Origin: Peptococcaceae bacterium BRH_c4a
Lineage (GTDB): Bacteria > Bacillota > Desulfotomaculia > Desulfotomaculales > Desulfocucumaceae
Reading direction: 5' to 3'
Length of the DNA stretch: 35,502 bases
Assembly (NCBI GenBank): GCA_000961585.1
Contig: LADN01000032.1
Coordinates: forward strand, 1 to 35,502
Both the position numbers and the translations under genes were made by a program. Below, one piece after another: positions 18,057-30,816 of the stretch; position 1 is the stretch's first letter, and the number at the start of each line of letters is the position of its first letter. The notes beneath the pieces are model-generated. The model was not told the origin of the DNA. It worked only from the letters and a program-made list of their open reading frames with translations, and made no database searches.

Positions 18057-18119
18057 TTGAGGTTTAAAAAGAAAAGTGTCGGGATCAAGGAGATTAGCGG
18101 AGTTGATTTGCAGAGTTGA
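18057..18119 (+). other. Possible 20-codon leader ORF before the synthase
   Basis: A strong AAGGAGG (18044-18050) has no gene behind it except a TTG-started frame of 20 codons (MRFKKKSVGIKEISGVDLQS) ending 23 bp before the synthase ATG. The end of the frame runs into a near-perfect tandem repeat of AGTTGATTTG. It could be a short translated leader that couples or tunes synthase expression, or simply a vestigial ribosome site. Confidence 0.25.
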
Positions 18120-18142
18120 TTTGTAAAAAGGAGGCAATACAA

Positions 18143-20617
18143 ATGGCGATTAATGTTGAGGAAATGCAGAAGAAAGAACAGTGGTGGTGGATGGCGGAGC
18201 AGAAGCGTTCCAAGAGGCTGGACTACCTGCGCAAGGCTGCGTGGAAGAAAGGCGCCGTGGGAGGAGCGTACCTGCCCGGAATAAAGATCGACCTGAGCAG
18301 GCCGGTGCTGTACACCCAGGCCTGGGAGGAGAACTCGGGCGACCCCACAATGCTGAGGAAGGCCAAGGCGCTGGCCCATGTATGGGATAACACTCCTATT
18401 TTCATCACCGACCATGCCAACCTGGTGGGCTATGTGGGGGACGCCCCGAACACACTGATGTGGCACCAGGAGGGGCTGTTCCTCACTAACGAGGAAATAT
18501 ACAATGACCGCACGGTGATTCCGGATCCGGAGGAAGATTCGCTCCAGGTAATGCGCGATATTTGCGACTACTGGTCGGATAAGACTGCGCTGGGCAAGGT
18601 GATGGAGCTGTCCAGCCCTGAGGACGCAGTCAAGTTTATGAGCGGCTACATCGCCTGGGGCGTACCCAGCTCGGCCCTGACCTATTCGACCAAGCAGTAC
18701 GACTGGTGGATGCGGGGCTTCAACTACATAATTGATGAGATCGACAAGAACATTGCCAAAGCTGAAGAAGAGATGAACGGCATCCCCTCGCCCGAGATAC
18801 TGGGAAATTACGACAAGATAAAGAACTGGGAGGGCATGAAGATCGTCCTGGAGGCCGGTATCAGGTGGGCCGGGCGCTACGCCAGGCTGGCCAGGATAGA
18901 GGCCGAGAACTTTGAGACCGATCCCAGGAGAAAAGAAGAGCTGCTGAGGATAGCCGAGACGTGCGAGCGGGTGCCGGCCAACCCTCCCAGAAACCTGCAG
19001 GAATCGTTGCAGTTTGAACATTTTGTTCAGGTTATGGCCCGTTATGAGGCCGGGGAAGCCGCCTGGCCGGCCCGCCCGGACTACTGGCACTTCCCGTACT
19101 ACGACAAGGACGTCAACCAGACCAAGCGGATCACCAAGGAAGAGGCCACCGAACTGGTGGGTGAATTCATGATCAGGGCTTATGAAGTGGGCATTTATTT
19201 CATCTCCTTTATCCGGGAAGCCCTGCAGGGAATCACGGGCACCTGGGTATGGACCATCGGCGGCGTCAAGCCGGACGGCAGCGACGCATGCAACGAGCTG
19301 ACCGAAGTCTTCTGCCAGGCGGCCCGGCTGGTGAGGGTGGCCAATCCGACACTGTCGTTCAGGTACCACTCCATGGTGCCGGACTCCACGCTGCGGGAGG
19401 TATTCGAGTGCATCAGGCAGGGGCTGGGGTATCCCAACATAAGGCACGACCCGGTACTGATCGCCAACATGATGCACTGGCACAAGCACCCCATCGAGGA
19501 AGCGCGGACATGGGTGAACCAGGCGTGCATGTCGCCGTGTCCCACCACCAAGCACGGGGCACAGCCCTTCCGGATGGCCTCGGCCACCGTCATTACCTGC
19601 AAGGCCATTGAGTACGCCCTGCACGACGGCATGGATCCGGTGGCCCAGATGCAGATTGGGCCGCAGACCGGGGACGCCAGGAAGTTCAAGACCTATGAGG
19701 AGCTGTATGAGGCGTGGTACATCCAGATCAAGTACCTGATGGACCTGCTGGTGCGGTTTGTCAACCTGGCCCGGATAAAGGACCCCGAGTTTTACGGCCG
19801 CCCGTTCCTGTCAGGGATTTATGAGCGGGCTGTGGAGCAGGGAACCGATGTGTGCAACCCGAAGGGAGAGAGGGGTAACTGCTGGACCACGTTCTTTGGC
19901 TGGATAGAGAACGGCGATTCACTGGCGGCCGTAAAGAAGCTGGTGTTTGACGAGAAGAAGTACACCATGGAACAGCTCATTGAGGCGATGGACAAAAACT
20001 GGGAAGGCAGAGAAGAGATGCGCCTTGACTTTGTGAAGGCGCCCAAGTGGGGCAACGACGACGACTACGTGGATCAGGTCCACGTACGGGCGATGCGGGA
20101 CGTTGCCAAGCACTCCATGGAGATGAAGGATCCCACGGGCAACCCGTGGCCGCCCCTGCCGGAGATGGTGAGCGCCAATATTTCATACAGCAGCAAGGTG
20201 GGCGCGCTGCCCAACGGTCGGAGGCTGGGAGATCCTCTGTACGACGGCGGATTGTCGCCGGGCACAGGACTGGACAAGAAGGGACCGACGGCGGTTTTGC
20301 GGTCGGCTTCCAAGATCAACCACATCACAGACGGCAGGGCCTTTCTTTTGAACCAGAGGCTGTCGCCGGTGCAGCTGCAGGGTGAGAAGGGTTACCAGTT
20401 GTGGAGGGACTACATTAAAACCTGGTTTGACCTGGGCATCGACCATGTGCAGTTCAACATGGTGAACAACGAGACCCTGCGGTCGGCTCAAAAGGATCCC
20501 GAGAAATATAATGAGCTGATTGTGCGGGTGGCGGGCTACAGCGCCCACTTTGTGGACATCAGCAGGAAGACCCAGGACCATATCATCCAGCGGACGATTC
20601 AGGAACTCGGTTGTTAG
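18143..20617 (+). CDS. assA: Fumarate-adding glycyl radical enzyme, alkylsuccinate/benzylsuccinate synthase alpha subunit
   Basis: Catalytic subunit, 824 residues, of an X-succinate synthase, which adds a hydrocarbon C-H across the double bond of fumarate. The thiyl Cys462 is in ACMSPCPTTKHG. Arg477, 15 residues later, sits where benzylsuccinate synthase has fumarate-binding Arg508. The radical site is Gly798 in VRVAGYSAHFVDIS, 26 residues from the end. Dehydratase and decarboxylase relatives have CVEP at the Cys site; MSP here is typical of fumarate-adding enzymes. Length is slightly below BssA of Thauera (about 865). The neighbouring ligase, mutase and decarboxylases favour an alkane substrate (AssA/MasD type), but the subfamily cannot be settled by reading alone. 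ATG 18143 follows AAAAAGGAGG; the 27 upstream in-frame bases contain that ribosome site. Confidence 0.93.
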   Translation: MAINVEEMQKKEQWWWMAEQKRSKRLDYLRKAAWKKGAVGGAYLPGIKIDLSRPVLYTQAWEENSGDPTMLRKAKALAHVWDNTPIFITDHANLVGYVGDAPNTLMWHQEGLFLTNEEIYNDRTVIPDPEEDSLQVMRDICDYWSDKTALGKVMELSSPEDAVKFMSGYIAWGVPSSALTYSTKQYDWWMRGFNYIIDEIDKNIAKAEEEMNGIPSPEILGNYDKIKNWEGMKIVLEAGIRWAGRYARLARIEAENFETDPRRKEELLRIAETCERVPANPPRNLQESLQFEHFVQVMARYEAGEAAWPARPDYWHFPYYDKDVNQTKRITKEEATELVGEFMIRAYEVGIYFISFIREALQGITGTWVWTIGGVKPDGSDACNELTEVFCQAARLVRVANPTLSFRYHSMVPDSTLREVFECIRQGLGYPNIRHDPVLIANMMHWHKHPIEEARTWVNQACMSPCPTTKHGAQPFRMASATVITCKAIEYALHDGMDPVAQMQIGPQTGDARKFKTYEELYEAWYIQIKYLMDLLVRFVNLARIKDPEFYGRPFLSGIYERAVEQGTDVCNPKGERGNCWTTFFGWIENGDSLAAVKKLVFDEKKYTMEQLIEAMDKNWEGREEMRLDFVKAPKWGNDDDYVDQVHVRAMRDVAKHSMEMKDPTGNPWPPLPEMVSANISYSSKVGALPNGRRLGDPLYDGGLSPGTGLDKKGPTAVLRSASKINHITDGRAFLLNQRLSPVQLQGEKGYQLWRDYIKTWFDLGIDHVQFNMVNNETLRSAQKDPEKYNELIVRVAGYSAHFVDISRKTQDHIIQRTIQELGC

Positions 20618-20698: not shown

Positions 20699-20860
20699 AT
20701 GAAATGCGATAAATGCAATTATGAAGGTTCCAAAAACGAATTCAGGTACCTGTATAATGTTCAGATAGACGAGAGTATCTCGTGCCGCGAATGCCCAAAG
20801 TGCCATTCCTTTGTCAATTGTGACGAGCTGGCCGAGGAAAAAAGCCGGAAAGGCGCATAA
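20699..20860 (+). CDS. Rubredoxin/zinc-ribbon-like small protein (MasB-like candidate subunit)
   Basis: A 53-residue protein with six cysteines: Cys3, Cys6, Cys29, Cys32, Cys35 and Cys41 (CDKC ... CRECPKC ... C). This spacing suits a rubredoxin-like or zinc-ribbon metal site. Alkylsuccinate synthases have been reported with an additional small subunit, MasB, with rubredoxin-like character; this is my best guess for its identity, based on position and cysteines only. It lies just after assA and the UUCG stem-loop and before the two Fe-S subunits. A longer paralogue with the same six cysteines is found at 21573. Confidence 0.75.
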   Translation: MKCDKCNYEGSKNEFRYLYNVQIDESISCRECPKCHSFVNCDELAEEKSRKGA

Positions 20861-20897: not shown

Positions 20898-21242
20898 ATG
20901 TCTCAGGATTGGAAAAAATACCGGGAGCAGTGGATGAAAGCCTCGTCGAAGAAGGGCATTAACCGTGATGTGGTGCCGGATAAGGCATGCGGGTACTGTG
21001 AAAAATTTCAGCCCAGCGGAGCTGACGGCGGCGGCGGAAGCGGTATCTGCACTGTGCTGAAAAACGGAAGCGACATAGCAAAGGGTGTTTATGTTAAAGA
21101 GGGCGGGATCCCCATGCCCACTCTGGACATCATGGACGGCGGCAGTTGCGAATATTTTAACCAGATAAAACGTCTGGACACCAACACCACCGAAGTATGG
21201 AACCCGTCCATGCGCGCCAACAGGCTTTTCAAGGAAAGGTAA
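20898..21242 (+). CDS. Small Fe-S subunit of the synthase (BssB-like)
   Basis: A 114-residue protein with four cysteines, Cys31, Cys34, Cys51 and Cys84 (CGYC ... C ... C), as in the HiPIP-like 4Fe-4S small subunits of benzylsuccinate synthase and 4-hydroxyphenylacetate decarboxylase. It is longer than Thauera BssB (about 80 residues), with an extra N-terminal charged stretch and C-terminal tail. A glycine-rich run (GADGGGGSG) separates the second and third cysteines. The start is ATG after GAAGGGGG. By position it is the beta subunit of the synthase. Confidence 0.8.
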   Translation: MSQDWKKYREQWMKASSKKGINRDVVPDKACGYCEKFQPSGADGGGGSGICTVLKNGSDIAKGVYVKEGGIPMPTLDIMDGGSCEYFNQIKRLDTNTTEVWNPSMRANRLFKER

Positions 21243-21279: not shown

Positions 21280-21459
21280 GTGGCCACATGCAAGGATTGC
21301 AAGTTTTATTTTGAAATTGAGGATGACAGTTCAAAAGGTGATTGCGTAACCAAGGTTACCGACGCAAGGCAGTCTTACACCAGGGCGAAATCTGTGCCTA
21401 ACGACGGTGACGCTTCAAAATGCTCCACCTTCCAGGTGAGGCTGGGAACCGTAAAGTAA
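21280..21459 (+). CDS. Small Fe-S subunit of the synthase (BssC-like)
   Basis: A 59-residue protein with cysteines at 4, 7, 22 and 48 (CKDCKFYF, GDCV and SKCSTF). The length and the pattern CxxCKFY...GDCV...TDARQSY match the gamma subunit BssC of benzylsuccinate synthase, which binds a low-potential 4Fe-4S cluster and protects or tunes the radical subunit. The start is GTG, with AAGGAGG 8 nt upstream. Four small metal-binding proteins are clustered after assA, of which this is the third. Confidence 0.85.
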   Translation: MATCKDCKFYFEIEDDSSKGDCVTKVTDARQSYTRAKSVPNDGDASKCSTFQVRLGTVK

Positions 21460-21572: not shown

Positions 21573-21938
21573 ATGAAGTTCACCTGCGTTTACTGCGGGT
21601 ATGCCGACAAAGTAACTGAGTTCAGCTATATTTCGGCGGCCGGGTGATGCGGTCCGCGGGAAATGCGCCGCTGTCCCCAATGTCAGAATGCTTGCCTTTT
21701 TGACAAGCTGGAAGCCAGGGAAAAAGATGAAGACAGGGCGAGGGAACTGTGTGTGCAGTTAGACGGCATTAACGGGGATGCGGATGCGGCCGTTCGTGAA
21801 ACGGCCCGGGATATGATAATTGAGCTGGAACAATTGAATAAAGGGCTGTTTATTGATGGTCTCCGGCAATTTATAAGCTACAAGAAAAACGAACTGGGGC
21901 TGCAGGAGCCTGTGGACGATAACAGCCGGACATTTTGA
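21573..21938 (+). pseudogene. Six-cysteine zinc-ribbon-like protein interrupted by one in-frame TGA
   Basis: ATG 21573 has a good ribosome site (GGAGG, 8 nt). Translation stops after 24 codons at TGA 21645-21647, yet the same frame then runs on for 96 codons without another stop. Read through, the 121-residue product has Cys5, Cys8, Cys26, Cys34, Cys37 and Cys41, matching all six cysteines of the 53-residue protein at 20699, plus a helical tail of about 80 residues. The downstream part has its own ATG at 21663 but no ribosome site. Three readings are possible: a recent nonsense mutation, a selenocysteine codon (a small hairpin follows, but closer to the TGA than is usual for bacterial SECIS), or two separately translated pieces. 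Pseudogene is the cautious label. Confidence 0.6.
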
Positions 21939-21954: not shown

Positions 21955-22800
21955 ATGAAATTTGAAGTGGCAAAAATGATCCCTGAAAAGGATCCTTGTT
22001 TTTATTTACCGAAAGAAGCCGTCGGTTATTTGAATTCGCTTGACAGGCTTTCGCGAAAGCACCCTGTTAACGCTCTGATTGCCGGCAAGGAAGGGTGCGG
22101 CAAGTCGTCGCTGGTTCGGCAGTTTGCGGCGAGAAACCACCGGTCGCTGGCCACCTTTCAAATCGGCATCCTTTCGGAACCCGGTCAATTATTTGGTGAA
22201 CACCGTCTCAAGGACGGCGAAACGTATTATCAGCGTTTTTTATTTCCCGAAGCCATACAGACACCAGGATGTGTGATTCACTTGGAGGAGATCAACAGGC
22301 CGGAGCATCCCAAGGCGCTGAATATGCTCTTTTCCGTGCTTTCTGACGACAGGTGCGTGTGGACCGATGAACTGGGCCTGATCAAGGTTGCCGACGGCGT
22401 GGTGTTTTTTGCGACGCTGAATGAAGGTGAAGAATTTGTAGGAACCGAAATGCTTGATGCGGCACTGAGGGATAGATTTTATATTTTGCAGGTGGGCTAC
22501 CTGCCAAGCCCGGTGGAAAAACATGTGCTGATGGCAAAGACCGGTGTTGCTGAAGAACAGGCCCTTACGATTGTGAATATCGCCAATATGATCCGGAGCA
22601 ACTCCAAATTTTCCGTGTCCCTTTCCACGAGGCATGTTTTGATGATTGCCGAACTGGTGGCTGTAGGAACATCCATTCAGGATGCCTTTACGCTGAGTCT
22701 GCAGGTAAACCCGGATGTTCTTGAGTCGATTCTACTCTCACTGCACTTCGGTGTGGCGGTCAAAGGGGAGATGGGTGAAGTGGAATATGAACTCTACTGA
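21955..22800 (+). CDS. MoxR-family AAA+ ATPase, BssE-like (copy 1)
   Basis: A 281-residue AAA+ ATPase. Walker A is GKEGCGKSS, Walker B is VIHLEEIN, and the sensor region FFATLNEGEEF and arginine motif LRDRF follow. It corresponds to BssE of toluene operons, a MoxR-type ATPase. MoxR ATPases work with VWA proteins to remodel or activate metalloenzymes (as CbbQ-CbbO and NorQ-NorD do), so this one with the next gene probably activates or reconditions the glycyl radical enzyme. A close paralogue lies at 27064. ATG 21955 follows AAAGGAAAAG; its end overlaps the next gene by 14 bp, which suggests translational coupling. Confidence 0.93.
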   Translation: MKFEVAKMIPEKDPCFYLPKEAVGYLNSLDRLSRKHPVNALIAGKEGCGKSSLVRQFAARNHRSLATFQIGILSEPGQLFGEHRLKDGETYYQRFLFPEAIQTPGCVIHLEEINRPEHPKALNMLFSVLSDDRCVWTDELGLIKVADGVVFFATLNEGEEFVGTEMLDAALRDRFYILQVGYLPSPVEKHVLMAKTGVAEEQALTIVNIANMIRSNSKFSVSLSTRHVLMIAELVAVGTSIQDAFTLSLQVNPDVLESILLSLHFGVAVKGEMGEVEYELY

Positions 22801-24463
22801 CAGCTATCTTAATGCTGTAAGGGCTGATGAGGAAGATCTGAATCCATATGGCAAGGGGGGCCTTTCGGCATACTGGCGCAAGAATTTATCACCCCTGGAA
22901 ACGGTGGAGCTGGCCAATGTGCTGCGGGCGCTGAGGAAGGTGACCGGCTTTTTAGGGGATAATGTGGGCAGCGTCGACTGGATGGGGATGTCGGTTAAGG
23001 GCAAAGGCAGGCTTGTGCTGGATCCGGAACTTGTAAGGGGAGCGTACCCTGTTCCTTATGAGAAAGTGGATGTTTTGGTGGGCATAGTGGTTCACGAGGC
23101 GCTTCACCGGGTTGTCTGGAGCGAGCGGGTATGGCTTGAGGCCGATAAGCAGGCCGCTGGATTAACTCCCCGGGAGAGACTCCTGTTGTCAAAGATTATA
23201 AGCGCCGGCGAGGATGTCTATGTAGATATTATTTCTCAAAAATCGGTGTTGGGTTTGTATACCGACAAGGTCAGAAAAATTGCTTTGAAGAAGTTAAAAA
23301 AAATTTACAGCGCTATCGTTATTCCATCGGTTGACGAACTGCTCAATCTCTGGTGGGGCTCGGTGGGCGTGGAATTGGTGCCGCAGCCGGCGCCTTACGC
23401 ATACCGGGACAAGATCGACGTGTTTAAGGCCGTCAACGGCAGTCTTAAGGAAATAGCTTCTGACAGCGCCGGTATTCTTGACCGTTGCGGTAAAAGAAAA
23501 GATTTGTACCTGGATCTGTGGAAAGAGGTTTACGGGGATATAAAATCATGGAAAATATTTGACTTTTCCATGCCGTATTACTCAGACAATTATAGTCAGG
23601 AGTCCTCAAAAGCGGTGAAGCGGAGCGGCCTGGCCATGCCTCTGCCGGAAGACATGAATGAGATTGAGGCCAGGCTGGCCGTAGGGTCAACCGATATTAC
23701 CCCGCTGATCCTGGCGGTGGTGGGTGAGGAGGAGGCAGATAAGGTTATACCTACTTCGGTGTGGGATTTTAATATTATCAACTCTCATCCTGTTATTGAC
23801 CCGCACCTGGTAATGCGGCTGAGAAAGATTTTTGAAACCTATGCTGAGCGGAGGTATCTGGTCAACAGGGGACTGAAGGCCGGGAAAATAGACCCCCGGA
23901 GGCTGCATAGAGCGCCCATTGACGGGCGGTGTTTCAAGGAAAAACAGTTTCGTGCGGAAGCGTCGTGGAATATCACACTGCTGATTGATGCGTCTGCGTC
24001 AATGCGCGGCGTGAAATGGAGAATGGTTGAGAATACGGTGGCCACGATATTCACTGCCCTGAAGGGCACAAACAATCACCTGCAGGCGTTTGGATATTAT
24101 GAGATGGATAATATCTGCATGATTTCGAGGCTGATTAAAGATGGCAAGCTGCTCTCATTATATCCCAGCGGCCGGACCGCTTCCGGCCAGGCCATTATCG
24201 GAGCCGCCTTGCAGATGAACTGGGCCGGAGGGAAGCGGCTGATGATTCACGTTACCGATGGGGGATCCAATGTCGGCTGTGATGTCGTGTACGGGATTAA
24301 TTATTGCAAGGTCAAGGGTATAGACCTGGTTACGCTGGGCAGCGGGTATGAGGATCGAGATCTTATGTCGGAACAATATGGCGGGTCGATTCGTTTTTTG
24401 GATTATCTTGATCAGGTTCCCGGCGCCATTGAAAGTCTTTTAAGAAAGAAAATTATGGGTTGA
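22787..24463 (+). CDS. VWA-domain protein with HExxH metallopeptidase-like motif (copy 1)
   Basis: A 558-residue protein. The N-terminal half contains HEALH (103-107), an HExxH zinc motif as in DUF2201_N metallopeptidase-like domains, and a conserved GEDVYVD further on. The C-terminal third is a von Willebrand A domain with the MIDAS motif DASAS and the later THVTDG-like strand (IHVTDGGSNVG). It is the partner of the overlapping MoxR ATPase. ATG 22787 is chosen because the upstream in-frame extension lies inside the ATPase gene. Whether the HExxH site is catalytic or structural is not known. The paralogue at 27921 has lost it (REAYR). Confidence 0.87.
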   Translation: MNSTDSYLNAVRADEEDLNPYGKGGLSAYWRKNLSPLETVELANVLRALRKVTGFLGDNVGSVDWMGMSVKGKGRLVLDPELVRGAYPVPYEKVDVLVGIVVHEALHRVVWSERVWLEADKQAAGLTPRERLLLSKIISAGEDVYVDIISQKSVLGLYTDKVRKIALKKLKKIYSAIVIPSVDELLNLWWGSVGVELVPQPAPYAYRDKIDVFKAVNGSLKEIASDSAGILDRCGKRKDLYLDLWKEVYGDIKSWKIFDFSMPYYSDNYSQESSKAVKRSGLAMPLPEDMNEIEARLAVGSTDITPLILAVVGEEEADKVIPTSVWDFNIINSHPVIDPHLVMRLRKIFETYAERRYLVNRGLKAGKIDPRRLHRAPIDGRCFKEKQFRAEASWNITLLIDASASMRGVKWRMVENTVATIFTALKGTNNHLQAFGYYEMDNICMISRLIKDGKLLSLYPSGRTASGQAIIGAALQMNWAGGKRLMIHVTDGGSNVGCDVVYGINYCKVKGIDLVTLGSGYEDRDLMSEQYGGSIRFLDYLDQVPGAIESLLRKKIMG

Positions 24464-24518: not shown

Positions 24519-24914
24519 ATGAAGCTTTTTTCCAGAGAGTGGGCGGATACGATGGCGGAGACATTGAAGGCCAGTCCCGATTTTCAAGAAAAGGCGGCGG
24601 GCTTTGACAGCAAGTTTCAGTTCATAGCCCTTCCCGATTCCGGCGCCGGGGTAAGCGAAGAGCGGGCCTGCGGGATTAATTTGCCCCAGTGTGACGAAGT
24701 GTGGTCGGGGAAACGGCCTGACGGAGAGGTGGACGTAATTTTAGAAGGCAAGTACGGAAACATGGCTAAGATAATGGCGGGCCAGACCAACCTGCTGGCG
24801 GCGTTGGCAATGCGAAGCGTCAGGCTGAAGAAGGGGAGTGCGGGCAAGCTGACCACCTATCTGGGAGCTGTAAACATCTTCATAGAAAATTCAAAGAAAC
24901 TCAGTGTATCTTAG
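24519..24914 (+). CDS. SCP2-like lipid-binding protein
   Basis: A 131-residue protein whose C-terminal half (VDVILEGKYGNMAKIMAGQT followed by a ...NLLAALAMRSVRLKKG segment) resembles the SCP-2 sterol-carrier fold, which binds fatty acyl chains and other hydrophobic ligands. There is no signal peptide, so it acts in the cytoplasm. Inside a hydrocarbon locus, between the VWA protein and the activase, it may hold or deliver the alkane or the alkylsuccinate to the synthase; that role is inference. The start is ATG after AAGGAGG. Confidence 0.72.
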   Translation: MKLFSREWADTMAETLKASPDFQEKAAGFDSKFQFIALPDSGAGVSEERACGINLPQCDEVWSGKRPDGEVDVILEGKYGNMAKIMAGQTNLLAALAMRSVRLKKGSAGKLTTYLGAVNIFIENSKKLSVS

Positions 24915-24951
24915 ATTTCTGATGCGGTAGGCAGACGAGGAGGTTGTGCGG

Positions 24952-25890
24952 TTGAAGAAAGCGTTGATTAGCGATATACAGTTTTATTCTCTGAATGACG
25001 GCCCAGGAATTAGAACCAATGTTTTTCTTAAAGGGTGTCCTCTTCATTGTGAATGGTGCCATAATCCGGAGACTCAGCCGCCGACTCCCGAGCTGTATTG
25101 GAAGCGCATGCTTTGCGCGCAATGCGGCAGGTGTATGGAAGCATGTCCCAACGATGCCATAAATGCGCCCATCGACCCTGGGATAGCAATGGACAGCGAT
25201 TCCACCTATCACAAGATCATCAGGGATCGGTGCAATAATTGCATGGCCTGCGTTAAAGCGTGTCTATATGACGCTTTGGTGGTGGTCGGTGAGGATCGCA
25301 GCATTGATGATGTGATAGGAGAAGTTGTAAGAGACGCCCCTTTTTATAATAATTCAGGTGGAGGCATGACCATCAGCGGAGGAGAACCACTGCTGCATCA
25401 TGAGTTTTCGGCGGAACTGGCCAGGCGCGCCAAGGAAAAGGGCATCAACGTATGTGTCGATACTTCCGGGTACGGATCCTGGGAAGCTCTGGAGGAACTG
25501 GCCCGTTATGCCGATATATTCCTTTTCGACCTAAAGCACCTTGACAGCAATGAGCATAAAAGGAGAACCGGTGTCGGAAACAGGGAAATACTTGAGAATC
25601 TCCAAAAATTATCCGCCCTGGGTGAGAGGATATGGATTAGACTGCCTGTAATCGCTGGTTATAACGATTCAATGGACTATATGAAAGGGGTTGTTGATTT
25701 CCTTAAGTCTCTGCCCAATCCTGTCGAGAAGGTGGATCTGCTGCCTTTTCACAACTGGTGTCAGGATAAATATGGCTGGCTAGGCAAGAAATGGGAAATG
25801 AAGGAAATCGACGCTATGGATTACGGGGATTGCGAAACCATAAGACGTATGTTTGAATACAGCGGGTTCACGGCCACTGTGGGCAGTTGA
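24952..25890 (+). CDS. assD: Glycyl radical enzyme activase (radical SAM), AssD/BssD-like
   Basis: A 312-residue activase that generates the glycyl radical on the synthase from S-adenosylmethionine. The radical SAM cluster motif is Cys29, Cys33, Cys36 (GCPLHCEWCHNPE). An inserted ferredoxin-like domain carries two CxxCxxCxxxC sets (Cys55-65 and Cys94-104), as in BssD and the HPAD activase. The SAM-binding GGMTISGGEP segment is present. TTG 24952 lies 8 nt after AGGAGG and is preferred to GTG 24946, which is only 2 nt from it. In Thauera the activase gene is first in the operon; here it is many genes downstream of the synthase. Confidence 0.95.
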   Translation: MKKALISDIQFYSLNDGPGIRTNVFLKGCPLHCEWCHNPETQPPTPELYWKRMLCAQCGRCMEACPNDAINAPIDPGIAMDSDSTYHKIIRDRCNNCMACVKACLYDALVVVGEDRSIDDVIGEVVRDAPFYNNSGGGMTISGGEPLLHHEFSAELARRAKEKGINVCVDTSGYGSWEALEELARYADIFLFDLKHLDSNEHKRRTGVGNREILENLQKLSALGERIWIRLPVIAGYNDSMDYMKGVVDFLKSLPNPVEKVDLLPFHNWCQDKYGWLGKKWEMKEIDAMDYGDCETIRRMFEYSGFTATVGS

Positions 25891-27063: not shown

Positions 27064-27924
27064 ATGTTGACGCATCAAAAAGACATAAAAGTTCCTCTGC
27101 TGGATAATTATTTCTTTGCTCCAGGAGAGGTCATATTTGTTTTGGAAAAATTAGAAAAACTTAGCAGGAAACATCCTTTGAATATTCTCATTACCGGCAG
27201 GCAGGGCTGCGGAAAGTCATCCCTGGTGCGCCAGTTTGCCGCTTTTTACAATCGCCCGATGGCTGTTTTCCAGATGGGGCTGCTTTCCGAGCCCGGCCAA
27301 CTGTTTGGAGAGCACGCTTTGAGGGGTGGAGAGACCTTTTATCAGGAATTTCTTTTCCCCAAAGCCATTTCCACCCCGTATTGCGTGATACATTTAGAGG
27401 AAATCAACCGTCCGGAACACCCCAAGGCGCTCAATGAGCTTTTTTCCGTTTTATCGGAAAACAGGTGTATTTGGGTAGACCAACTGGGACTGGTTGAAGT
27501 GGCCGAAGGGGTGATCTTTTTTGCCACCATGAACGAAGGGGAGGAATTTACCGGGACGGATTCTCTGGATGCCGCTCTGAGGGATAGATTTTACACTATT
27601 TCACAGGACTATTTACCGGCCGATGTGGAAAAAGAGGTGCTGTGCCTGAAGTCCGGGATCAGCGCAGAGGACGCCGGGATGATCATCGGCATTGTACACA
27701 GGCTCAGAAAAAATCCCCAGTTCCCGGTGTCGGTTTCCACCAGGCACAGTTTGATGATGGCCGAGCTGATGGCTGTGGGCGCCTCCATCAGGGAGGCCAT
27801 GATATACAGCCTGCAGGTATCAAGGGACCTGGTTGAGTCTATACTGCTGTCCGTTCATGCCGAGACGGGTGATCTGCAGGCCAGAGAGGACAAATACGTG
27901 CTTTTCAGGCCCGATCAGAGGTGA
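27064..27924 (+). CDS. MoxR-family AAA+ ATPase, BssE-like (copy 2)
   Basis: A 286-residue paralogue of the ATPase at 21955. Walker A GRQGCGKSS, Walker B VIHLEEIN, the LSEPGQLFGEH block and the LRDRF arginine motif are shared, with identity by eye of about two thirds across the core. N- and C-termini differ, which suggests a different partner or client. The start is ATG with AAGGAGC upstream. It directly follows the synthase fragment, and its stop overlaps the start of the second VWA gene (GTGA). Confidence 0.92.
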   Translation: MLTHQKDIKVPLLDNYFFAPGEVIFVLEKLEKLSRKHPLNILITGRQGCGKSSLVRQFAAFYNRPMAVFQMGLLSEPGQLFGEHALRGGETFYQEFLFPKAISTPYCVIHLEEINRPEHPKALNELFSVLSENRCIWVDQLGLVEVAEGVIFFATMNEGEEFTGTDSLDAALRDRFYTISQDYLPADVEKEVLCLKSGISAEDAGMIIGIVHRLRKNPQFPVSVSTRHSLMMAELMAVGASIREAMIYSLQVSRDLVESILLSVHAETGDLQAREDKYVLFRPDQR

Positions 27925-29666
27925 ATACGGTGAATATCGATCCCTTGTTGAAAGTTGGGAATCCTCTTTTTTATTACTCTGAATACTGGCGGTGCAATAA
28001 ATCCGCCCTTGAGCCGAGGGAACTGGCCAATGTTTTGCGGGCGCTGCGTAAGGTGGGGGCGTATATTGCCACAAATATCAAGCCCATTGAGTGGGCCGGC
28101 GCACCAGGCTCACCGGAAGAGAAAATACTCCTGGATATATCCCTGGTTTTGGGCAAATATCCGGTACCGGCCTGGAAAATGGATTTTCTGGTGGGCATGG
28201 TGGTCAGGGAAGCGTACCGCTGCAGGGAACTGAGCGATATGGTGGTGGTGCATCTAAAACCGGCGATGGAAGCGATGAAATCAGGCCACAGTGCGTTGAT
28301 GGGCCGCATGGCGGATATCGGAGAGGATATTTATGTCCGGCAGGCTGCCTGCGGCGCAGTCTGGGAGAATTATCTGATCAAGATATGGAACTCTTGCAGG
28401 CGCAAGGAAACAAGGGACCTTTTCCTTCCTCCCACCGCCAGGTGTCTGTTCCAGATATGGGAAGAGTTCTGTCTTGAGGGCAGGATTCAGGGCGTACACC
28501 ATGATTACTTGCAGCCCTTGGAAATTCTGTTGTCCCATACCAGGGCCATTGGCGAATCCGCCGGCCTGCGGTCAATTTTGAAGCGCAGCAAGGTGAGAAG
28601 TGAAATTTATCTCAGCATGTGGCAGGAGGTTGTGCGCTTCATCGACGGGTGGGAGGACGAAAGACCCCTGGAAAATAACGGTGCGGAGATGCTGGATGAG
28701 AGAGGCGTAAAAAAGTTTTCGGAAATGCTGGAAGATATTCCGGATGAGAACCCGGATGATGTTGATGAAAGGAAACCTTTGCCCGGGGAGGGCGAAAGTA
28801 ATCTGGACAAACTGGTTCAGGATGTTAATAAGGAGACTGAGGAAACTGAGGAAAATGGCATTGACGGCAAGGTGCGGATGGCTTACGGGAACGATACCGG
28901 GTCGATGATGGAAACCGTTTTTGTCAACGCCAGCCTGCCCTGCCGGATTCCCCGGGATCCCTTGCTGGTGCAGCGTTTAAAGAGCGCCTTTGAATTGCAA
29001 AGATGGGGTAAGCCGGAACATTTCCGGAACAACAGGGGCTTGCCGTACGGGAAGATTGACGGCAGGAGACTGTACCGGGCGGCTTTGGACGGGAAGATAT
29101 TCCGGCAAAAGGAATTCACCAAGGACAGCAATGCCTGGAACATTACCATTCTTGTGGACGCATCGGCTTCCATGAAGGGGGAAGCGGGAAATATTGGAAA
29201 AGACTGGGCCATTACGCAAAGGACGTTTGTGTCACTGTGCGAGGCAGCCAGGGGTTCCGGCAATACCCTAAATGTGTTTGCTTATTATGAGATTGGCGGC
29301 CGCTGTCAGATCAGCAGGTTATACCATGGCAACAGGTTGTACAGTGTTACCCCGCAGGGGCACACCCCCACCGGCCAGGCCATAGTGGCCGCAGTTTTAA
29401 AGACTCCTAAAGACAAAAGGCGGATGATTGTGCATATCACCGACGGGGAGCCCAACTGCGGGGCCGGTGTGGAACAGGCCCTGGAGTTTTGCTCCAGGGA
29501 AGGGGTGGAACTGGTGACCATCGGGTCCTATAATGATGTGGAAGAGGTAAAGGCTTTGTTTCAGGAACAGTACGGGGACAGGGTTTATTTGATGGAATCT
29601 CTGGAACATCTCCCCGAAGGGCTGGAGTCGTTGTTAAGGAGGAAGTTGCTGGACAGGGGTCACTGA
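27921..29666 (+). CDS. VWA-domain protein (copy 2), HExxH lost
   Basis: A 581-residue paralogue of the VWA protein at 22787. The N-terminal LANVLRALRKV block, PVPAWKMDFLVGMVV and GEDIYV are shared, but the HExxH site of copy 1 reads REAYR here, so any zinc-peptidase function is gone. An acidic linker (PDENPDDVDERKPLPGEGES and onward, about 275-315) is present only in this copy. The C-terminal VWA domain keeps DASAS and HITDGEPNCG. It pairs with the MoxR ATPase upstream. The start may be GTG 27921, overlapping the previous stop, or GTG 27930, which has AGAGGTGA at a better distance. Confidence 0.87.
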   Translation: MNTVNIDPLLKVGNPLFYYSEYWRCNKSALEPRELANVLRALRKVGAYIATNIKPIEWAGAPGSPEEKILLDISLVLGKYPVPAWKMDFLVGMVVREAYRCRELSDMVVVHLKPAMEAMKSGHSALMGRMADIGEDIYVRQAACGAVWENYLIKIWNSCRRKETRDLFLPPTARCLFQIWEEFCLEGRIQGVHHDYLQPLEILLSHTRAIGESAGLRSILKRSKVRSEIYLSMWQEVVRFIDGWEDERPLENNGAEMLDERGVKKFSEMLEDIPDENPDDVDERKPLPGEGESNLDKLVQDVNKETEETEENGIDGKVRMAYGNDTGSMMETVFVNASLPCRIPRDPLLVQRLKSAFELQRWGKPEHFRNNRGLPYGKIDGRRLYRAALDGKIFRQKEFTKDSNAWNITILVDASASMKGEAGNIGKDWAITQRTFVSLCEAARGSGNTLNVFAYYEIGGRCQISRLYHGNRLYSVTPQGHTPTGQAIVAAVLKTPKDKRRMIVHITDGEPNCGAGVEQALEFCSREGVELVTIGSYNDVEEVKALFQEQYGDRVYLMESLEHLPEGLESLLRRKLLDRGH

Positions 29667-30111: not shown

Positions 30112-30231
30112 GGTTGTAGTCGAATAAGTACTTTGTTGACCTCTTAATATAGTTTTGCAACACTCTCCTAGAAGAGGCTGCAATGCATAATTATGGTTTC
30201 AGGCCGCCAATGGGAAGGGGGATTGTCTTCG

Positions 30232-30816
30232 ATGATTGTTGATCATCCGGGATCTCACTTTATTTTTGTTTATCACCCTTATGTATTTTACGGGCGCAGC
30301 TATATTACCTATCAGGGCAGGCCCCTGACTAATAAAGAATATCTGGACCACTGGGGCAAGTGGATTGTTCTCGGTTCAAGAAAAAGACTGGATGATCTGG
30401 CCGCAAAACTGGATCTTTATGTTGAACAGGGTGTGATTCCCTGTGTTAAGTATGACCGGGAGCCTCCCAAAGAAATGGATTTGGAGGTCAAGCAGAAATT
30501 GCGGCGCCGCTTTATTGATGTCGGCCAGGATGAAGCTGTTTTAATGGAATGTGTAATGTGTGTCTTCTGTGACCAAAGACAGAGAGAAGAAGTGTGGCAG
30601 ATTTTGACCGGCCTGGGGGTGAACCTCAAGGCCTGGGTTTATGAGAAGGAAACCATTGACCTGTGGCTGCCGGGCGGGATATTGCTGGAGAGATGGATTG
30701 CCCAGAATTGTTCCGGTGAAGACGAAGCAGAAAAGGTCAGGCAGGAATCGCAGGAGCGGTTTAGGGAAACATTCAAAAATGAGGATGCCATTTATAAAGG
30801 ATGGCCTCAGCAGTAG
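30232..30816 (+). CDS. Unknown protein with CxxCxxC motif
   Basis: A protein of about 194 residues that I do not recognise. A CVMCVFC motif (CxxCxxC) lies near the middle, followed by an Arg/Glu-rich helical segment; the C-terminus is strongly charged. The first part is aromatic-rich (HFIFVYHPYVFYGRSYITYQ). No signal peptide or membrane helix. It lies between the MoaD-like carrier and the E1-like enzyme, which suggests it works with them, perhaps as the acceptor or a sulfur or metal handling partner. ATG 30232 with AAGGGGG 10 nt upstream is preferred to ATG 30193. Confidence 0.6.
   Translation: MIVDHPGSHFIFVYHPYVFYGRSYITYQGRPLTNKEYLDHWGKWIVLGSRKRLDDLAAKLDLYVEQGVIPCVKYDREPPKEMDLEVKQKLRRRFIDVGQDEAVLMECVMCVFCDQRQREEVWQILTGLGVNLKAWVYEKETIDLWLPGGILLERWIAQNCSGEDEAEKVRQESQERFRETFKNEDAIYKGWPQQ

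Follow-up and report, generated by a model that had tools for sequence, protein, structure and literature searches.

The window, a 35,502-nucleotide stretch that forms positions 1 to 35,502 of contig LADN01000032.1 of Peptococcaceae bacterium BRH_c4a, very probably encodes a selenocysteine (Sec)-containing paralogue of the subunit MasE/MASS-delta within a gene cluster for an alkane-activating X-succinate synthase (Table 1). The gene begins at 21573, and its codon 25 is a UGA that the Sec machinery encoded in the same genome almost certainly decodes as Sec. The Sec coding, the predicted fold of the first domain and the gene neighbourhood are each backed by evidence from sequence. A part for selenium in anaerobic hydrocarbon breakdown, apparently unreported, is probable, and the element would be linked to the first step of oxygen-free alkane breakdown.

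Table 1. Location of the X-succinate synthase gene cluster and of the putative selenoprotein gene in the window
Feature	Position	Strand	Remarks
Catalytic glycyl-radical subunit, alkylsuccinate-synthase type (AssA/MasD-like)	18116..20617	+	True start uncertain
MasE/MASS-delta homologue, rubredoxin-like subunit	20699..20860	+	9o8u chain D, E 2.4e-11
MasB/MASS-beta homologue	20898..21242	+	9o8u chain B, E 8.6e-10
MasC/BssC (gamma subunit) homologue	21280..21459	+	
Putative selenoprotein gene, 121 residues, Sec25	21573..21938	+	Predicted MasE-like N-terminal domain (~1-46) and three helices (45-64, 72-92, 95-108)
UGA codon 25, best read as Sec	21645..21647	+	TGA or Cys in relatives
Possible SECIS-like hairpin 3' of the UGA	21649..21671	+	Clear as a class only in UPAC-type relatives
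Terminating TGA of the 21573 gene	21936..21938	+	
MoxR-type AAA ATPase with CbbQ_C domain	21955..22800	+	
VWA-domain protein adjoining the AAA ATPase	22715..24463	+	Start uncertain; scanned from 22778
Glycyl-radical-enzyme activating enzyme (radical SAM)	24946..25890	+	

Reading frame, relatives and the codon 25 column

The frame that opens with ATG 21573 stays open on either side of the in-frame TGA until a second, terminating TGA is reached, as had been described in the initial annotation of this DNA. Two further points of that annotation were also seen again: a ribosome-binding site is present for the first part of the gene (AGGAGG, nine bases 5' of ATG 21573) with no equivalent at ATG 21663, and Cys26 follows directly on the TGA. 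On a standard reading, the ORF list holds the second half of the gene alone (21663-21938). The choice that the annotation had left between a selenoprotein and a fresh pseudogene falls on the side of the selenoprotein, given the presence of Sec genes in the genome and a codon 25 column that holds TGA, Cys or a gap. The possibility that compensating frameshifts flank the UGA was also weighed by eye and dropped because relatives at loci L026 and L042 match in the plain frame (UCGP...CPxC).

Relatives of the protein were sought in several collections. The first search covered 60 related genomes at E values up to 0.1 and gave matches in nine, with TGA relatives in genomes G019 and G020 in addition to the window's genome; the other matches were without TGA. 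When the search was made across the order, 12 of 113 genomes had a match, and TGA genes were present in the window's genome (G000), G019 (two genes), G020, G090 and G091. With AssA as bait, 79 named loci were obtained from the best 80 of 275 confirmed stretches, and the long form of the family was identified in 32 of them. Where at least 3 kb of sequence lay downstream of the AssA gene (46 loci), the family was present in 29 and missing from the fetched flank in 17: it is therefore not indispensable. A match was found in 27 of the 389 genomes searched from the class of Desulfosarcina alkanivorans; these gave 29 match rows (TGA in the same motif, 24; Cys, four; short form, one), and 15 of the 24 TGA genes were new, raising the number of distinct TGA genes to 37. 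Desulfosarcina alkanivorans PL12 (locus L077) is one of the organisms with the Sec form. Among 398 genomes drawn evenly from the window's phylum, a draw that may omit G019, G020, G090 and G091, the sole match was the window's own genome, and the plasmid collection searched contained no match to the family.

In a joint alignment of 43 family members, which was built with Cys standing in for Sec and thus favours that column, all 22 in-frame TGAs share one column. A Cys codon (TGC/TGT) occupies this position in 18 members and a gap in three, all paralogues; no other residue occurs, which answers the comparison of orthologues at codon 25 proposed in the initial annotation. Two of the 18 Cys rows, from contig 8 of G019, are loosely aligned at the Sec column and are without the partner Cys. 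The sequence 3' of the TGA is under purifying selection, with dN/dS values of 0.07-0.32 in each of the seven UGA-UGA pairs tested, synonymous change being close to saturation in some of these pairs. A tree constructed with the Sec column masked requires seven changes between Sec and Cys, two of which well-supported branches make unavoidable; in this tree the row of the window sits on a long branch. The residues flanking Sec form two main motif types, UPACGE (a UxxC) and UCGP, and the window's gene is of the UCGP type, while the five Actinomycetota members possess CCGP.

At loci L047, L048, L049 and L052, as well as at L021, L022 and L023, short proteins resembling MasE have a CCGP or GCC motif close to the Sec column. 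In the single genome G019 (L035, L036, L039), several AssA-like genes were identified together with two Sec forms; G019 also encodes several long MasE-like paralogues that have no Sec, one of which shows a gap at the Sec column.

RNA structure, selenocysteine machinery and decoding of the UGA

In one clade of the family, the UPAC-type genes, a hairpin lies 3' of the UGA; UGA genes have kept it, whereas most Cys genes have lost it. For the window's own gene, the letters of the hairpin reported in the initial annotation are in place, but stability beyond chance was not found, either against synonymous-codon shuffles of bases 4-33 (z -1.09, p 0.148) or against dinucleotide shuffles of 46 bases (z 0.05), and the hairpin was therefore set aside as proof of Sec. 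Applied to the family, the synonymous-codon shuffles of the same bases gave a mean z of -1.73 for the 22 UGA genes (p<0.05 in eight) and of 0.04 for the 18 Cys genes (p<0.05 in none); the two groups differ with a Mann-Whitney p of 2.7e-5, a value which, like the other p values of the hairpin tests, is only indicative because the rows are related.

UPAC-type genes carry a seven-pair stem that starts seven bases 3' of the UGA. Of 17 UGA genes, 14 form six or more of these pairs, compared with a single gene among 10 with Cys (Fisher p 7.5e-4, indicative in the same sense). When the set of UGA genes was enlarged to 28, pairing was observed in 92.9 percent of cells, exceeding all 500 shuffles, and the outer stem pair has changed from G-C to C-G in six of the 28; the corresponding figure for 11 Cys genes is 70.1 percent of cells, with the swap found in none. 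One stem pair has changed on both sides in the 28 UGA genes, a type of count that is inflated by kinship and that 470 of the 500 shuffles equally reach. Among UCGP-type genes, to which the window's gene belongs, no single common hairpin was seen by eye.

The machinery for Sec insertion, which the initial annotation had suggested looking for as selA, selB, selC and selD, was found in full: selA and selB adjoin each other in the window's genome, and tRNA-Sec and selD are also encoded. One tRNA-Sec, with anticodon tca, was called by ARAGORN. Three places score above the Rfam cut-off for tRNA-Sec, the other two of which are assigned to Cys and Ser by ARAGORN. Two selD genes are present (contigs 78 and 97), each possessing one in-frame TGA. 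Across the order, selA was identified in 13 of 14 genomes tested, the one missing it being G091 (70 percent complete), and selD above cut-off likewise in 13 of 14, missing from G090 (89 percent complete); G090 and G091 both carry a TGA gene of the family. The presence of SelA was also tried as a predictor of the Sec or Cys form and rejected, as no difference was found between UGA genomes (14 of 17) and Cys genomes (11 of 14).

TGA also serves as terminator for 11 of the 32 genes in the window, for seven of the 22 UGA genes (whose end, for this count, was the first in-frame TGA past 50 codons) and for the 21573 gene itself. It follows that TGA is not simply reassigned, and reassignment throughout the genome was rejected. 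A narrower alternative is that an unusual tRNA reads this UGA not as Sec but as some other amino acid such as cysteine, the one residue that takes the place of Sec at the column. The genome nevertheless has the complete Sec machinery with a tRNA-Sec called by ARAGORN, and RNA structure 3' of the UGA is retained mainly in UGA genes, so this alternative is highly improbable. A fresh pseudogene or sequencing error, with the TGA as a genuine premature stop, would fit the short ORF from 21663 and the weak hairpin of the window but is scarcely credible when 22 of 43 rows, including ones from Bacillota and Thermodesulfobacteriota, have a TGA in the same column, 18 have Cys, and purifying selection acts on the relatives' sequence beyond it.

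Fold and family of the protein

The 21573 protein is a paralogue of MasE/MASS-delta and not MasB-like, and its N-terminal domain is predicted to resemble MasE/MASS-delta. The 20699 protein, with which it had been compared in the initial annotation under the label MasB-like, is itself MasE-like (Table 1). Conservation of six cysteines between the two had been claimed and holds for four of the six in the 20699 protein (C3, C6, C32 and C35 with C5, C8, C34 and C37, in ungapped MasE alignments); Cys26 and Cys41 do not align with C29 and C41 of the 20699 protein. One further cysteine, Cys62, is present in the 21573 protein.

The sequence match of the 21573 protein to MASS-delta is weak (E 0.021). 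An AlphaFold model computed with 33 rows (mean pLDDT 86.6, pTM 0.63) consists of five strands followed by three helices, and places residue 25 in the loop that joins strands 18-22 and 29-33 and separates the two metal knuckles. The top PDB match of this model in Foldseek was MASS-delta (9o8u_D; 1.5 A over 45 columns, probability 1.00, E 0.063), and no match in this PDB search reached E 0.001. A second structure aligner also recovered MASS-delta, with Z 5.0 and 1.5 A over 46 residues, at rank 36; the entries ranked above it are mostly helical proteins matching the other part of the model. The C-terminal helices, taken as a domain within the whole-protein model, gave best Z values of up to 7.5, to helical proteins and bundles.

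Like MasE/MASS-delta of Azoarcus HxN1 (9o8u chain D), the 21573 protein possesses a metal site of four cysteine ligands (CxxC...CPxC) and, in the predicted model, a rubredoxin-like fold, and it is encoded in the same type of gene cluster. In the 9o8u structure, a single Fe is bound by MASS-delta, which rests on the glycyl-radical domain (PMC12358834). Two differences set the proteins apart: MASS-delta is described there as having 71 residues with a tail of ~20 (PMC12358834) and lacks a Sec/Cys loop, whereas the 21573 protein is predicted to continue for ~75 more residues with three helices after the rubredoxin-like domain. In addition, the cluster in the window encodes a separate MasE, at 20699, which is closer to MASS-delta than the 21573 protein is. 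At least one other Cys lies at positions -4 to +3 from Sec in all 37 UGA genes, its exact position varying, which points to a selenenyl-sulfide redox pair and not to a lone metal ligand.

No model of Pfam or NCBIfam (June 2026) scored above cut-off for the window protein or five relatives. The nearest candidate considered was NF041197, 'CxxC_Se_CxxC' (OS_HP3), likewise a small protein with the order CxxC, Sec, CxxC but differing in sequence and C-terminus. This profile (cut-off 40 bits) was not among the matches at E values up to 1 for the window protein and the five relatives; in the 16 genomes searched, its matches lay at loci other than that of the family member in each of the 11 with both places known; and hhalign of NF041197 against six members gave a probability of 23 percent over eight columns. 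It was therefore rejected as the known family of the 21573 protein. NF041197 matches were observed at L189-L194, in several of the same genomes as the family. In a recent review, NF041197 is equated with the 'hypothetical protein DW' of deep-Sep, an assignment made by the review (PMC13188914, Table 1); 'DW' is reported in Desulfosarcina BuS5, a strain that carries masD according to PMC4402382.

Sec with a close Cys is also described, in the same review, for HesB-like proteins, which have UxGP, and for UxxC/UC redox selenoproteins (PMC13188914); the likeness to the 21573 family is one of motif, with no relation of fold or sequence found. The accessible part of this 2026 inventory, which covers 119 prokaryotic selenoprotein families and subfamilies, ties none of them by name to alkylsuccinate-synthase enzymes (PMC13188914). 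A literature search joining selenoprotein and alkylsuccinate synthase returned no paper, and a wider one, judged on the partial texts it covered, gave nothing recognisable as the 21573 protein; Haft and Tolstoy 2025, a source beyond its reach, could describe it. Within this scope, the family appears to be an unreported, Sec-bearing paralogue of a known glycyl-radical-enzyme subunit. Mechanical ORF calling cuts the genes of the family at the UGA, as seen for ORF 21663-21938 and for truncated ORFs among relatives, which may leave them overlooked or wrongly annotated in many genomes.

Gene neighbourhood and candidate role

Most known members of the family are located in alkylsuccinate-synthase clusters. 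The AssA-bait search was confined to the surroundings of AssA and biases this share upwards; the genome-wide searches are free of that bias. Gene order was surveyed by tblastn with the window proteins, on the same strand and within 6.5 kb, overlapping matches being dropped. The next gene on the same strand encodes a MoxR-type AAA ATPase in 28 of the 43 rows, usually followed by a VWA gene, and a separate MasE is also present in many of the clusters. In G444 and G495, the family gene lies directly 3' of a gene for an activating enzyme. Cys forms outside such clusters were identified in G056 and on contig 8 of G019, where no neighbours of this kind were found.

The combination of the MASS-delta fold with a Sec-Cys pair in one paralogue suggests that it serves the radical enzyme in a redox capacity. 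The 21573 protein keeps the four metal-ligand cysteines and would carry Sec, with a Cys close by, in the loop that separates the metal knuckles; it could dock near the glycyl-radical domain, as MASS-delta does, where the Sec-Cys pair might reduce or reset the enzyme, for instance by restoring an active-site cysteine that has become oxidised or by quenching a stray radical. The neighbouring AAA ATPase and VWA protein may open or remodel the synthase complex. What we infer here is where the protein docks, its redox partner, its chemistry and what the AAA/VWA pair does, and redox maintenance of the glycyl-radical enzyme by the Sec-Cys pair is tentatively proposed as the likely role from position and fold. 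The fuller scheme, in which fumarate-addition alkane activation has a selenium-dependent arm whose Sec paralogue resets or protects the enzyme from its glycyl-radical domain, driven by the AAA/VWA machine, is a more doubtful possibility. Redox maintenance would give the hydrocarbon-activating glycyl-radical enzymes a testable redox partner, and it bears on a question raised by the 2025 MASS structure, namely the purpose of the rubredoxin-like subunit (PMC12358834).

Two other roles are conceivable for the same features. The rubredoxin-like iron site and the Sec-Cys pair might instead feed the [4Fe-4S] cluster of the activating enzyme, with the 21573 protein as its electron donor or docking factor. 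The gene order in G444 and G495 favours this, and reduction of the activating enzyme is raised as a possibility for MASS-delta in the report of the 2025 MASS structure, whose authors nevertheless consider electron transfer within the catalytic subunit unlikely (PMC12358834). The gene that most often follows is, however, that of the AAA ATPase, and a donor role is on balance unlikely. A metal or cluster chaperone, loading iron into the small subunits together with the AAA/VWA pair, is about equally improbable. The four metal-ligand cysteines are compatible with it, as are the VWA gene and the CbbQ/NirQ/NorQ C-terminal domain of the adjoining AAA ATPase: NorQ and NorD serve iron insertion. The close Cys partner of Sec in each of the 37 UGA genes points to redox chemistry over simple metal binding.

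Some further features of these clusters were recorded. Pfam BssC_TutF (PF08201) matched ORF 21280 only among the seven window proteins scanned, the 21573 protein giving no match. In G020 (L037/L151, 6801-8108), a transposase-looking ORF lies between the MasB-like match and the selenoprotein gene. Besides the MoxR-type AAA and VWA pair at 21955-24463, a second such pair is encoded in the window at 27064-29666. ORF 24519-24914 (131 residues) has no NCBIfam match, and its homologues are found near a family member at L077, L084, L086, L115 and L129. Homologues of ORF 30193-30816 are located close to a UCGP-type selenoprotein gene in G223, G462, G444 and G495 (L184, L186, L187 and L188).
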